Of a stretch of 64,000 nucleotides of DNA, positions 59,573 to 64,000 are shown one piece after another. Origin of the DNA: Roseofilum halophilum BLCC-M91 (GTDB taxonomy: Bacteria; Cyanobacteriota; Cyanobacteriia; Cyanobacteriales; Desertifilaceae). Position 1 is the stretch's first letter. Each line of letters opens with the position of its first letter. The DNA is taken from positions 1 through 64,000 of the forward strand of contig NZ_JAQPOK010000136.1 of the NCBI RefSeq assembly GCF_030068445.1, written 5' to 3'. The notes under the pieces were generated by a model. The model saw nothing but the letters and a program-made list of their open reading frames with translations. It ran no database searches and was not told where the DNA came from. A program made the translations under genes and the position numbers.

Positions 59573-60301
59573 CTATTGCTGAACTGAAAACAGAGTTTCT
59601 AATACTTCGTCTGGAGAATGATAGCCCAAACCATAACAAGCACGGTTGCGCCAGATAATTGCTGGAAGATGTCCCATGGGTGCAGAGAGGGAAAACTTGA
59701 GTTCATCGGTGCTTAACCATTTGGACTGAATGCGCCAGCCCACGCGATCGCAGAATCGGTCATAATGGCGATCGCACTCTTGCCAAATCCATTCCTGCAC
59801 CCCAAATCCAAACCGACCCTCACTATACTCATACCACAGCCGATCTAAGGTTTCTATATCGGTCTTCGGTAGCGCTTCTATCTCCTCCAGAGCCAGATCG
59901 TCCCCCTCCTCATATCCAGCCAGCGCCAACACTAATAGCCAGGTATACTCATTCGCCTGTTGCCAACTCCCAGCCGCCAGTAAATCCACCAAATGACTAT
60001 AATCCATCCCTACCTCAGACGGCCAAGGATTTGGGGCTTCAGCCCCCTTTAACTGTCGTAATTCTAACAAAACTTCATATAAAAGGTTTCTTAACTCTTT
60101 CCGCTCCTGAGACGCAATTTCTAGCTGCTCTTTTAACCAATCTCGCTCTGGTAACAGCATAGACTCATCAATCCAAATCGAACCATTCTCCAACTGCTCC
60201 CCCATCAGCCTGCCCTGTTTCCACCAGCGCCAAGCTGTTTTATAGGAGACCCCTACCTGTTGGGCATAATTTGATAATGTGATTCGCCCTTGTTCTTCCA
60301 C
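59573..60301 (-). CDS. HTH DNA-binding domain fused to GUN4 domain
   Basis: 242 residues. Residues 1-50 (ITLSNYAQQVGVSYKTAWRW and the following wing-like SIWIDES) look like the MerR/IS607-resolvase-type helix-turn-helix. Residues about 52-86 are a coiled coil, and residues about 100-215 a GUN4 domain: YSHLVDLLAAGSWQQAN, LDRLWYEYSEGRFGFGVQ, DRVGWR, and LKFSLSAPMGHLPA. GUN4 binds protoporphyrin IX and Mg-protoporphyrin and stimulates Mg-chelatase. A DNA-binding domain on a GUN4 fold suggests a tetrapyrrole-responsive regulator, but this is inference. It lies downstream of petC-petA on the same strand, past a hairpin. Confidence 0.85.
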   Translation of the reverse strand: MEEQGRITLSNYAQQVGVSYKTAWRWWKQGRLMGEQLENGSIWIDESMLLPERDWLKEQLEIASQERKELRNLLYEVLLELRQLKGAEAPNPWPSEVGMDYSHLVDLLAAGSWQQANEYTWLLVLALAGYEEGDDLALEEIEALPKTDIETLDRLWYEYSEGRFGFGVQEWIWQECDRHYDRFCDRVGWRIQSKWLSTDELKFSLSAPMGHLPAIIWRNRACYGLGYHSPDEVLETLFSVQQ

Positions 60302-60334: not shown

Positions 60335-60367
60335 AGAAACCGGGTCTCTTGAAGAAACCCGGTTTCT
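60335..60367 (-). terminator. Hairpin after petA
   Basis: AGAAACCGGGT and ACCCGGTTTCT are exact 11-bp reverse complements with an 11-nt loop. It stands between the petA stop (60391) and the HTH-GUN4 start (60301). The AAACCGGGTTTC core is a common dispersed palindrome in cyanobacteria. No strong T-run. Confidence 0.5.
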
Positions 60368-60390: not shown

Positions 60391-61359
60391 TTAGAAATTC
60401 ATTTCTGCTGCTTGGACTTTCTCCACTTGTTTCTTCTTCAGAACGAGGAAGATTTGAGTGATCATAATCAGCACTAAGAAAGCAATCATCCCTTGAATGC
60501 GAGTGGCATTTTGGAGAACGATTTCCGTATCCACTTGACCAAAACCGCCCACATTGGGATTGTTGGTTAAAGCTTGTCCGGCTTCTACTTCGTCCCCTTC
60601 AGAAACGATTAATTCGGGGCCAGCAGGAATACTGTCAACAACAGCATCTCCATCGGCTGGTTGAATGGTGACTTCATAGCCGCCATATTCGAGTTCATTA
60701 ATGCTGGCGATCGCTCCAGCTACAGAAGCAGGAACAACGGTATTGTTGGTATTGTTTCCGGCGGGATAGACTTGACCGCGACCTCGGTTTCCGCCCACAT
60801 GAACGGCATATTTACCATAGTTGATGGATTTATCCGTTTTGGGGTCAGGAGAGAGAATGGGGAAGACAATTTCTTGATGGTCTTCACCCGGAATAGGGCC
60901 AATCAGGACTACATTTTCTTGGTCTGCGGTATAGGTTTGATAATAAAGGCCTTCGGTTTCTTCTTTGAGTTCTTCAGAGATGCGATCTTCGGGCGCAAGC
61001 TTAAATCCTTCCGGCAGCATCAGGACTGCACCGACATTGAGATCCCCTTTACTACCATCACCTAAGACTTGTTGTACGCTGGTGTCGTAGGGAATTTTAA
61101 CGACGGCTTTGAATACAGTGTCGGGGAGGACGGAGTGGGGCACTTCCACTTCAGTGGGTTTGGCTCCGAGGTGGCAGTTGGCGCAGACAATGCGGCCGGT
61201 AGCTTCACGGGGGGTTATGGGAGCGGTTTCTTGGGCCCAAAAGGGGTAGGCTGCTGCGGGTTGGGGGTTAATGAGATCGGAGGCGGCAAAGATAGAGATG
61301 GCCGCGATCGCCACTAACACCAACCTGCGCCATGTTGCTAAAACAGAACAGTATTTCAT
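60391..61359 (-). CDS. petA: Cytochrome f precursor
   Basis: 322 residues. Haem-bearing subunit of the cytochrome b6f complex, passing electrons from the Rieske protein to plastocyanin or cytochrome c6. A signal peptide spans about 1-37; the mature N-terminus is YPFWAQE, whose Tyr is the unusual axial haem ligand. The c-type haem site is CANCH. A small domain follows, then a C-terminal membrane anchor (about 287-306, [17 protein letters not shown]). It is 51 bp downstream of petC, the usual petCA operon. Confidence 0.97.
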
Positions 61360-61410: not shown

Positions 61411-61950
61411 TTAAGTCCACCAGGGGTCTTCGTTGGTGCGGAAGTCAGTTTCTTCCCAGTTGCTGAGAATCACTTTATCATCGGTTACGTCAGCATGGGC
61501 CAGAGCTAAGGATAGGGGAGCAGGCCCGCGAACGACTTTACCTTCCGCATTGTACTGGGAGCCATGACAAGGGCAGATAAATTTGTTTTCACTCTGATTC
61601 CAAGGCACAACGCAACCCAAGTGAGTACATACGGCGTTGAGTCCGTAGCTGGCTAAGGTTTTGTCTTGTTTAACGACTAAATAGGTGGGGTCGCCTTTGA
61701 GTCCTTGGACAAGGGAGCGATCGCCTGCGGGATGACTGGCTAAATACTCACTAGCCACCACATCATTACCGGCCGCATCCTTAGCTGTCGTCCCGCCTCC
61801 AGCACCACCAACGGAGGGAGGAATAAAATACTTGACCACCGGATAAAGTGCGCCTAAAGCCACTCCGGTTGCGGAACCAAAGGTTAAGAGGTTCATAAAT
61901 TGCCGCCGTCCCATGTTGGGGACATCTGCCGATCCAGAAGCTTGAGTCAT
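61411..61950 (-). CDS. petC: Rieske iron-sulfur protein of cytochrome b6f
   Basis: 179 residues. One N-terminal membrane helix (about 18-42, [19 protein letters not shown]), a Gly-rich hinge (GGAGGG), and a soluble Rieske domain with 2Fe-2S ligands in [10 protein letters not shown] and [12 protein letters not shown]. It accepts electrons from plastoquinol and hands them to cytochrome f, encoded next. Confidence 0.97.
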
Positions 61951-62720: not shown

Positions 62721-63332
62721 ATGACCATAACAACTTCTACCCCGAAACCGGAAACCCAAACCCGAACTCGCATTCTCGAAGCTGCCCAACATTTGTTTGC
62801 TCGCAAAGGCTATGATGGCACAACCACGAGGGATCTAGCTCAAGCGGCGGGGGTGGCGGAAGGGACTCTATTTCGGCATTTTAGTAATAAGAAGGCGATT
62901 TTGTTGGAAATTGCTACCCAAGGCTGGATTGATATTTTGACGGATCTGCTCACGGAGTTAAGCGAAATGGGCAGTTATCGCGATATTCCCCAGGTGATGC
63001 GACGGCGAATGATGAGTTTGCATCGCAATGGGGATCGCATGAGAGTCTGTTTTATGGAAGCTCAGTTTCATCCAGAGTTGCGCGATCGCATTCAAGGGGA
63101 TGTGATCGATAAAATGACGGATGTGGCCGAAGCATTCTTTCAAACAGCGATGGATCGGGGCGTTTATCGCCAGATGAATCCTAAAATTGTCGCCCAGGTA
63201 TTTTTGGGCATGTTTGTGATTGCCGGATTTAGCGATACAACCATTATTGAACCGGACGCTTCTCCCCAGTCCATGCGCGAAATGGCTGAAGGAATGGCGG
63301 ATATTTTTCTCCATGGTGTGTTGACGAAGTAG
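62721..63332 (+). CDS. TetR-family transcriptional regulator
   Basis: 203 residues. HTH at about 18-60 (ILEAAQHLFARKGYDGTTTR, LAQAAGVAEGTLFRHFSNK). The C-terminal ligand and dimer domain is diverse. It is convergent with the MFS transporter after a G-rich repeat; regulation of that transporter is possible but unproved. Confidence 0.9.
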   Translation: MTITTSTPKPETQTRTRILEAAQHLFARKGYDGTTTRDLAQAAGVAEGTLFRHFSNKKAILLEIATQGWIDILTDLLTELSEMGSYRDIPQVMRRRMMSLHRNGDRMRVCFMEAQFHPELRDRIQGDVIDKMTDVAEAFFQTAMDRGVYRQMNPKIVAQVFLGMFVIAGFSDTTIIEPDASPQSMREMAEGMADIFLHGVLTK

Positions 63333-63498
63333 GGGGGAATGGGGGGATGGGGAGACACGGGGACACGGAGACGCGGGGATGGGGGGATGGGGGGACACGG
63401 AGACGCGGGGATGGGGGGATGGGGGGACACGGAGACGCGGGGATGGGGGGATGGGGGGATGGGGGGACACGGAGACGCGGAGACACGGAGACACGGGG
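63333..63498. repeat. G-rich modular repeat array
   Basis: Modules of ACACGGAGACGCGG followed by two or three GGGATGG-type units repeat three to four times; the strand is almost free of C and T. Several G-runs of four to six could form quadruplexes. Long open frames in both directions are low-complexity artefacts. It separates the convergent tetR and MFS genes. Confidence 0.85.
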
Positions 63499-63519
63499 AA
63501 ATTACCTTTTGCCTATTCC

Positions 63520-64000
63520 CTACTCCCTATTCCCAAGAGAGCGCAAGATCCAGATACCGAGGAGAGTGCTGAAGGCGATCGCCAGCCAAAACCCATCGAT
63601 GATGATCCGAGACTGGTCTAAAACCCATCCTCCCAAAGGGGGGCCGATCAGATAGCCAATGGCCCAACATTGGGCATTAATAGCTAAATAGGTTCCCCTT
63701 AAGTCTTCTGGAGCGAAATCGACTACCAGCGCCGAGGCGGAAGGGGTATATAGGGCTGTGGCAACAGCGACCCCTGCTAAAGCACTAATGGCCCAAAATA
63801 AGGCCCCTTGAGAAACTCCACCGGTAATCCACACCAGGAGGAAACTGCCGCTCCAAACCGATAGGGATAGCATTAACCCTTGGGGACGACTCCAACGGTT
63901 TAAGGTGCGAGCGATGGGGAGCTGACAGAGGGCTAAAAAGGCAATTTGCCCGGTAAATAAGCCGCTAATGATGGCGGGAGAAAAGCCCCCGGAGGCTAAA
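63520..64000 (-). CDS. MFS transporter, 5' end beyond the window
   Basis: The C-terminal about 160 residues of a major facilitator permease. The frame continues through position 64000 without a stop (upstream residues read LASGGFSPAIISGLFTGQ), so the start is outside. Visible membrane segments include FLLVWITGGVSQG and an NAQCWAIGYLIGPPLGGW helix. The motif DFAPEDLRGTYLAINAQ fits drug-exporter-type MFS proteins. Substrate unknown. Confidence 0.85.
   Translation of the reverse strand, partial: LASGGFSPAIISGLFTGQIAFLALCQLPIARTLNRWSRPQGLMLSLSVWSGSFLLVWITGGVSQGALFWAISALAGVAVATALYTPSASALVVDFAPEDLRGTYLAINAQCWAIGYLIGPPLGGWVLDQSRIIIDGFWLAIAFSTLLGIWILRSLGNRE

Follow-up and report, generated by a model that had tools for sequence, protein, structure and literature searches.

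A GUN4 paralogue of Roseofilum with an IS607 transposase-type helix-turn-helix: a candidate one-component regulator

Locus and protein architecture

The window analyzed here is a stretch of 64,000 nucleotides from Roseofilum halophilum BLCC-M91. It contains a gene for a protein in which a helix-turn-helix (HTH) is joined by a coiled coil to a GUN4 domain (Table 1). Directly upstream on the same strand, with a gap of 89 bp, lie petA and petC. Elsewhere in the window, positions 63160 to 63660 hold a stretch of short repeats that is open in several frames on both strands, with ORFs of the GGMGGWGDTETR or SPHPPIPASP type, and that looks like a low-complexity repeat array.

Table 1. Positions of the HTH-GUN4 gene, its protein domains and its upstream neighbors in the window
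Feature	Position	Strand	Basis or remark
HTH-coiled coil-GUN4 gene	59573..60301	-	putative GTG start; 242 codons plus stop
Winged helix-turn-helix, residues 6-46	60164..60286	-	IS607 TnpA DNA-binding domain homologue; TnpA profile, AlphaFold2, BldC Z, dN/dS
Coiled-coil helix, residues 54-85	60047..60142	-	AlphaFold2; least conserved part of the protein
GUN4 domain, residues 95-215	59657..60019	-	PF05419 and structure comparison with 7e2t/4xkb
Family tail W217-R-N-R-A-C-Y-G-L-G226, at the ligand-loop position, LxNxLR replaced	59624..59653	-	tally of 99 tails; alignment with Synechocystis GUN4
Inverted repeat in the petA/HTH-GUN4 gap	60335..60367	.	member of a dispersed repeat, not locus specific
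petA (cytochrome f), upstream neighbor	60391..61359	-	named from sequence; context only
petC (Rieske protein)	61411..61950	-	named from sequence; context only

An earlier note on this DNA had proposed that an HTH is joined by a coiled coil to a GUN4 domain. This architecture is real: all genomes of the genus keep it, purifying selection acts on it, and the AlphaFold2 model and the TnpA profile described below agree on it. The protein is a member of the GUN4 domain family PF05419, with a Pfam match over residues 95 to 215 (E 5.7e-38) that scores 130.7 bits against a curated cut-off of 29.2. In a structure comparison (VIA-align), residues 91 to 242 superimposed on Synechocystis GUN4 with a Z of 22.2, at 1.5 A over 142 residues and 30% identity. 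The N terminus was less readily classified by profile models. Pfam HTH_23 matched below threshold (E 0.023), the NCBIfam IS607 transposase model NF033518 matched the first 60 amino acids at E 6.3e-4, below its cut-off, and no MerR HTH model was found among the Pfam matches up to E 10. The serine-recombinase catalytic domain PF00239 gave no Pfam match, nor did Pfam find any other catalytic domain.

Structure prediction bore out both domains, with a winged HTH that is predicted to fold and an intact GUN4 fold. The AlphaFold2 model (mean pLDDT, 86.6) was based on an alignment of 45 rows, A1, among which were seven TnpA HTH pieces. It consists of a winged HTH (strand 6 to 8, helices 9 to 16 and 20 to 28, strands 34 to 36 and 42 to 45), the helix of residues 54 to 85 that makes up the coiled coil, and then the GUN4 fold. 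Residues 1 to 54 matched BldC with a Z of 7.7 and SoxR, MtaN, and CarH with Z values of 5.2 to 5.5 (VIA-align). Because values below 8 often arise by chance according to the tool, the HTH assignment rests on sequence.

Genomic neighborhood and upstream repeats

The gene does follow petC and petA in the window, as the earlier note had pointed out, but the link is not conserved: among nine genomes, the adjacency is common only to the window and G386, whose protein is 96% identical. The seven remaining family genomes that have the gene carry petA on a different contig, although the contigs are short. The petCA link as a conserved context was rejected on account of its absence from these seven genomes. 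The suggestion that the gene might stay near petCA or tetrapyrrole genes elsewhere was not borne out either, as no tetrapyrrole enzyme was found by Pfam among the neighbors sampled, namely, nine at other family loci and one in the window, which are part of all neighbors. These ten comprised a subtilase, an MscS channel, an enoyl-CoA hydratase, a DUF5615 protein, two Uma2 proteins, MoeA, a DUF445 protein, a solute-binding protein, and one matchless protein.

A gene for a TIGR04096-type putative methyltransferase, phosphorothioation associated, was observed divergent near the HTH-GUN4 gene in four of the nine gene-bearing family genomes, covering three genera (L075:4492-6555, L076:5234-7417, L077:5090-7360, and L078:8439-10532; genomes G387, G008, G390, and G391). 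The TIGR04096 assignment was confirmed for L075, and the others were grouped with it by clustering. In G387, a Uma2 gene lies between the two genes.

The hairpin in the gap between petA and the HTH-GUN4 gene was considered as a specific operator and rejected, since it belongs to a dispersed repeat. Its 15-mer, AGAAACCCGGTTTCT, has 60 copies in the genome, 30 per strand, and the reversed control has none. The copies often form opposed pairs about 48 bases apart and are clustered on some contigs (C79, C118, and C121). A simple scan of 8 upstream stretches found no shared inverted repeat beyond the hairpin of the window and G386, and a promoter and terminator scan gave results at or below chance. 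A tandem repeat precedes the gene in G390 (L066, L077), but G391, a close relative of that genome, lacks it.

Homology of the HTH to the IS607 transposase TnpA

By sequence homology, the HTH is identified as the DNA-binding domain of the IS607-family transposase TnpA. Its earlier description as resolvase/MerR-like was correct and could be sharpened to the IS607 serine transposase. When contigs were scanned with peptides of the window protein, IS607 TnpA serine recombinases of several phyla with the same HTH were obtained. This first panel was partly biased, most of its members having been found via the window peptide pattern. Because such selection had to be avoided, TnpAs were collected again with L069, the TnpA of the same genome, as the query, and the test was repeated. 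The resulting profile of 18 IS607 TnpA DNA-binding domains matched the window protein at 66.5 bits (E 1.6e-19), while the best of 2,420 shuffled sequences reached 13.6 bits. All eight intact HTH-GUN4 rows scored between 63.8 and 87.2 bits, and L153, a relative discussed below, scored 53.2 bits. No zinc-ribbon-only row rose above the shuffled controls, and no other natural row was among the best 16 matches listed. Both the shuffled sequences and the lack of any score for the zinc-ribbon relatives with the TnpA profile ruled out a generic HTH arising by chance.

The similarity is close at the level of residues. The window HTH and the nearest TnpAs agree at 24 of 39 positions; for the HTHs of G390 and G008, compared with intact cyanobacterial TnpAs, identity reaches 31 of 39 (79%). 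L069 itself is intact, with an HTH of the same subtype as the window's and a catalytic domain that Pfam finds. The core HTH residues G17, T22, R25, G30, and G40 are the same as in TnpA, and the recognition helix, SYKTAWRWWKQG, is nearly unchanged. The wing reads GEQLENG in the window versus GYQLPSG in many TnpAs, with a gain of acidic residues, and the window HTH carries a net charge of +1, compared with +3 to +6 across 17 TnpAs. As described in two reports (PMC4058570, PMC6188088), the DNA-binding domain of TnpA is an N-terminal MerR-like winged helix whose targets are direct repeats near the IS607 transposon's left end; the latter report describes binding of repeated sites by a TnpA dimer (PMC6188088).

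Between the window and four orthologues, the dN/dS of the HTH was 0.077, 0.089, 0.039, and 0.179, and there were zero changes relative to the fifth, G386; therefore, strong purifying selection acts on the HTH, which is maintained. The corresponding values were 0.06 to 0.37 for the linker and coiled coil (four pairs, the fifth not being computable) and 0.12 to 0.24 for the GUN4 domain. The identity of the coiled coil was below that of the HTH in all five pairs.

A family of GUN4 paralogues with a CYG tail

On the basis of its tail, the window protein is assigned to a large GUN4 paralogue family with the near-invariant tail WRxRACYGxG, named here CYG-GUN4; the residues after GHLP, GHLPAIIWRNRACYGLG, fit this signature. 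The best matches outside the window's family have a coiled coil, GUN4, and the tail GHLPxxxWRxRACYGxG, mostly with a zinc ribbon of the form CPxC...CxxCGWDL at the start. Among 99 related ORFs, which were picked by similarity to the window so that the tallies describe this set and not GUN4 proteins at large, 76 had a zinc ribbon by Cys pattern (L153, one of these, bears an HTH too), 8 had an HTH, and 15 had neither by the patterns used. In this last group, L067 has an HTH ahead of an in-frame TAG, L098 and L168, being without the CYG tail, fall outside the family, and the remaining starts are basic, membrane-like, short, or truncated. L098 and L168 (GUN4 without the CYG tail) and L067 (internal stop) were excluded before tallies and trees; L164, L166, and L129 were also left out of the tree, and L130 and L166 were left out of the tail tally. 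L207 and L153 are one locus. The zinc ribbon of the relative L012 was modeled with a pLDDT of about 90 (model A3; mean pLDDT, 84.0).

Orthologues of the full HTH-coiled coil-GUN4 protein were present in all six genomes of the genus Roseofilum. Nine of ten family genomes had a match, each with the HTH and none with the zinc ribbon; the sole exception was G392, with no HTH-GUN4 match at E 1e-36. The form with an HTH but no zinc ribbon was seen only in Roseofilum and the other members of the window's family. The G391 copy (L067/L078) has an in-frame TAG between the coiled coil and GUN4, in a genome with 7% contamination, and is a pseudogene or an assembly error.

A tree was built from 103 rows; in it, the eight HTH rows grouped as a single clade (100/95), apart from L153. 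In L153 (2-100; genome G534, family f2), a TnpA-type HTH stands directly ahead of a zinc-ribbon GUN4; the ORF is cut by the contig end, and the source genome is 61% complete. The HTH form was absent in the other 13 genomes of G534's family. L153 is possibly an intermediate or a second capture. The tree suggests two independent captures of the HTH, but the AU test did not reject a single origin (p 0.144, and 0.129 when the HTH alone was used).

Replacement of the canonical ligand contacts

The GUN4 domain had been described as well kept. This stands for the fold, but the peptides GRFGFGVQ, DRVGWR, and SAPMGHLPA, on which the description relied, are general fold signatures common to paralogues and not evidence for the pocket. 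In a profile alignment with Synechocystis GUN4, the equivalents of porphyrin contacts are replaced (W192 by T198 and F196 by L201), and none of the four residues of the LxNxLR motif is kept (L209 to A214, N211 to I216, L213 to R218, and R214 to N219). Of 101 family tails, 99 were counted, and Asn at 211 was present in none. Other tail residues were kept almost throughout: Trp212 in 98, Arg213 in 94, Arg215 in 99, Cys217 in 98, Tyr218 in 98, and Gly219 in 98. The near-invariant Cys-Tyr-Gly of these tails (98 of 99), including that of the window, occupies the ligand-holding loop of canonical GUN4.

In the parts of PMC10156173 relevant here, the LxNxLR motif is tied to bilin binding, and the N219G change at the bilin-binding Asn of Chlamydomonas GUN4 abolished bilin binding and left porphyrin binding. 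The same parts report that the motif is incomplete in cyanobacterial GUN4 paralogues and propose that motif-less paralogues do not bind bilin (PMC10156173). For Arabidopsis GUN4, F191A and R211A/E, equivalent to F196 and R214, are described in a section of PMC8967248 as lowering porphyrin affinity 2- to 12-fold. As we read these data, pocket changes in the GUN4s tested make binding weaker but do not in every case remove it.

Because the known porphyrin and bilin residues are replaced, porphyrin binding by the window GUN4 is possible but not implied. The earlier note had staked its idea of porphyrin sensing on the pocket residues, and their replacement speaks in part against it. The loop signature WRxRACYGxG suggests a different ligand or partner that is shared by the family. 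Since the canonical contacts are absent and this signature, with its near-invariant Cys, stands instead, the ligand may be a tetrapyrrole bound otherwise or something else.

A separate canonical GUN4, L001, is encoded in the same genome (216 bits to Pfam GUN4), with GHLPLTNQLRG and thus the full LxNxLR. The genome has ten GUN4 loci, L001 included. Besides that of the window protein, the nine GUN4 loci of this genome (G000) are on C41, C137, C14, C16, C50, C12, C27, C168, and C79; kinase-GUN4 ORFs are apparent by eye at some of them (L002, L007), and those on C168 and C79 are near dispersed hairpin repeats.

Proposed mechanism and alternatives

We consider the chances slightly better than even that the protein binds DNA as a coiled-coil dimer and is modulated by its GUN4 part, being a one-component regulator made by domain capture. 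The mechanism is proposed because the predicted layout of winged HTH, long helix, and small-molecule domain is that of MerR-type regulators. In the ancestor of the window's family, a zinc-ribbon GUN4 paralogue would have acquired the DNA-binding domain of an IS607 transposase, and the zinc ribbon would have been lost in all family members with the HTH form. The long helix would form a dimer coiled coil, the dimer would bind two DNA half-sites via the TnpA-type HTH, and the occupancy or conformation of the GUN4 pocket may alter DNA binding and with it transcription. The low positive charge of the HTH, the altered wing, the lack of a shared operator in a simple scan of upstream stretches, and the loss of canonical pocket residues argue against a regulator, and the neighbors are too little conserved to name a target.

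A tetrapyrrole as the signal can be proposed only tentatively. In this special case of a one-component regulator, a porphyrin, haem, or bilin at the GUN4 domain would directly control DNA binding, which we regard as possible, with chances clearly below even. The GUN4 fold is intact, Chlamydomonas N219G kept porphyrin binding (as given in part of PMC10156173), and other authors ascribe tetrapyrrole sensing, by inference, to the GUN4 domains of fusions with kinases, caspases, and TIR domains (PMC7159879). However, the equivalents of W192, F196, N211, and R214 are all replaced, with Asn in 0 of 99 tails, the F196- and R214-equivalent mutants of Arabidopsis bind 2- to 12-fold more weakly (a section of PMC8967248), and motif-less paralogues are proposed not to bind bilin (part of PMC10156173). 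It is improbable, though conceivable, that the capture yielded a tetrapyrrole- or light-gated transcription factor in which the Cys of WRxRACYG is a thiolate ligand or a site of covalent haem or bilin attachment. The HTH might instead no longer bind DNA and serve as a protein-interaction or spacer head, while GUN4 acts on a partner; the zinc-ribbon relatives may work in this way too. The zinc ribbon, membrane-like, or basic heads of the relatives suggest that the head may be exchangeable, and the net charge of the window HTH is low, but a mere spacer would need neither the TnpA residues G17, T22, R25, G30, and G40 nor strong purifying selection, and we hold this explanation to be rather unlikely.

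A domesticated antagonist of IS607, whose captured HTH still recognizes the repeats at IS607 ends and either prevents transposition or reads sites derived from the IS, would account for the barely changed recognition helix (SYKTAWRWWKQG) and would find an IS607 TnpA of the same subtype, L069, in its own genome. However, five of the six gene-bearing Roseofilum genomes and G008 are without an L069-like TnpA at E 1e-30, and only the window genome has one; because such a TnpA is missing from these genomes, the selective upkeep of the HTH would be hard to see. The wing residues have also drifted, and an antagonist is quite improbable. A canonical Mg-chelatase cofactor with an incidental N-terminal extension has the GUN4 fold in common with the window protein, but is extremely improbable, as L001 with its full LxNxLR is a separate protein of the same genome and all four motif residues are lost from the window protein.

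If the one-component regulator outlined above does bind DNA, it would be a clear case of a bacterial transcription regulator that arose when a transposase DNA-binding domain was captured, and the participants are in hand: IS607 TnpA as the donor, the zinc-ribbon GUN4 as the recipient, and the HTH-zinc ribbon-GUN4 form as a possible intermediate. Among the papers listed by full-text searches of the open-licence PMC literature, none was seen to deal with an HTH-GUN4 protein, and none with IS607-derived regulators. In plants, GUN signaling is indirect, and the role of the GUN4 family in plastid-to-nucleus signaling has long been argued over. If the GUN4 domain also binds a tetrapyrrole, the protein would link tetrapyrrole sensing to transcription in a single step and offer a simple system in which to test the role of this family. 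A Cys-ligated haem or bilin switch, if true, would give cyanobacteria a direct tetrapyrrole-to-gene switch, in contrast to the indirect signaling of plants.

Comparison with known systems

The window protein has the N-terminal winged HTH of IS607 TnpA, in the order strand-helix-helix-wing, but is without the resolvase catalytic domain that L069 has. With the zinc-ribbon CYG-GUN4 paralogues, it has the coiled coil, GUN4, and the tail in common, and the tree unites them in one family; it differs in having the HTH in place of their N-terminal zinc ribbon. Compared with the GUN4/Ycf53-like Mg-chelatase cofactor of Synechocystis (sll0558; 1y6i, 4xkb, 7e2t), the fold is the same, whereas LxNxLR, W192, and F196 are missing, the tail is WRxRACYGxG, and an HTH and a coiled coil stand in front.

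MerR-type one-component sensors are known. The predicted order of HTH, helix, and small-molecule domain is that of the MerR family, and the structural matches to SoxR, MtaN, and CarH are weak on their own. Unlike this family, and unlike CarH with its MerR HTH and cobalamin-binding domain, the window protein has no Pfam MerR match and carries an unrelated effector domain. Fusions of GUN4 to kinases, caspases, TIR, and other domains have already been described, in parts of PMC7159879, with GUN4 as an accessory and probably sensory domain. GUN4 may play the same role here, but the output of the HTH-GUN4 protein would be DNA binding and not an enzyme.
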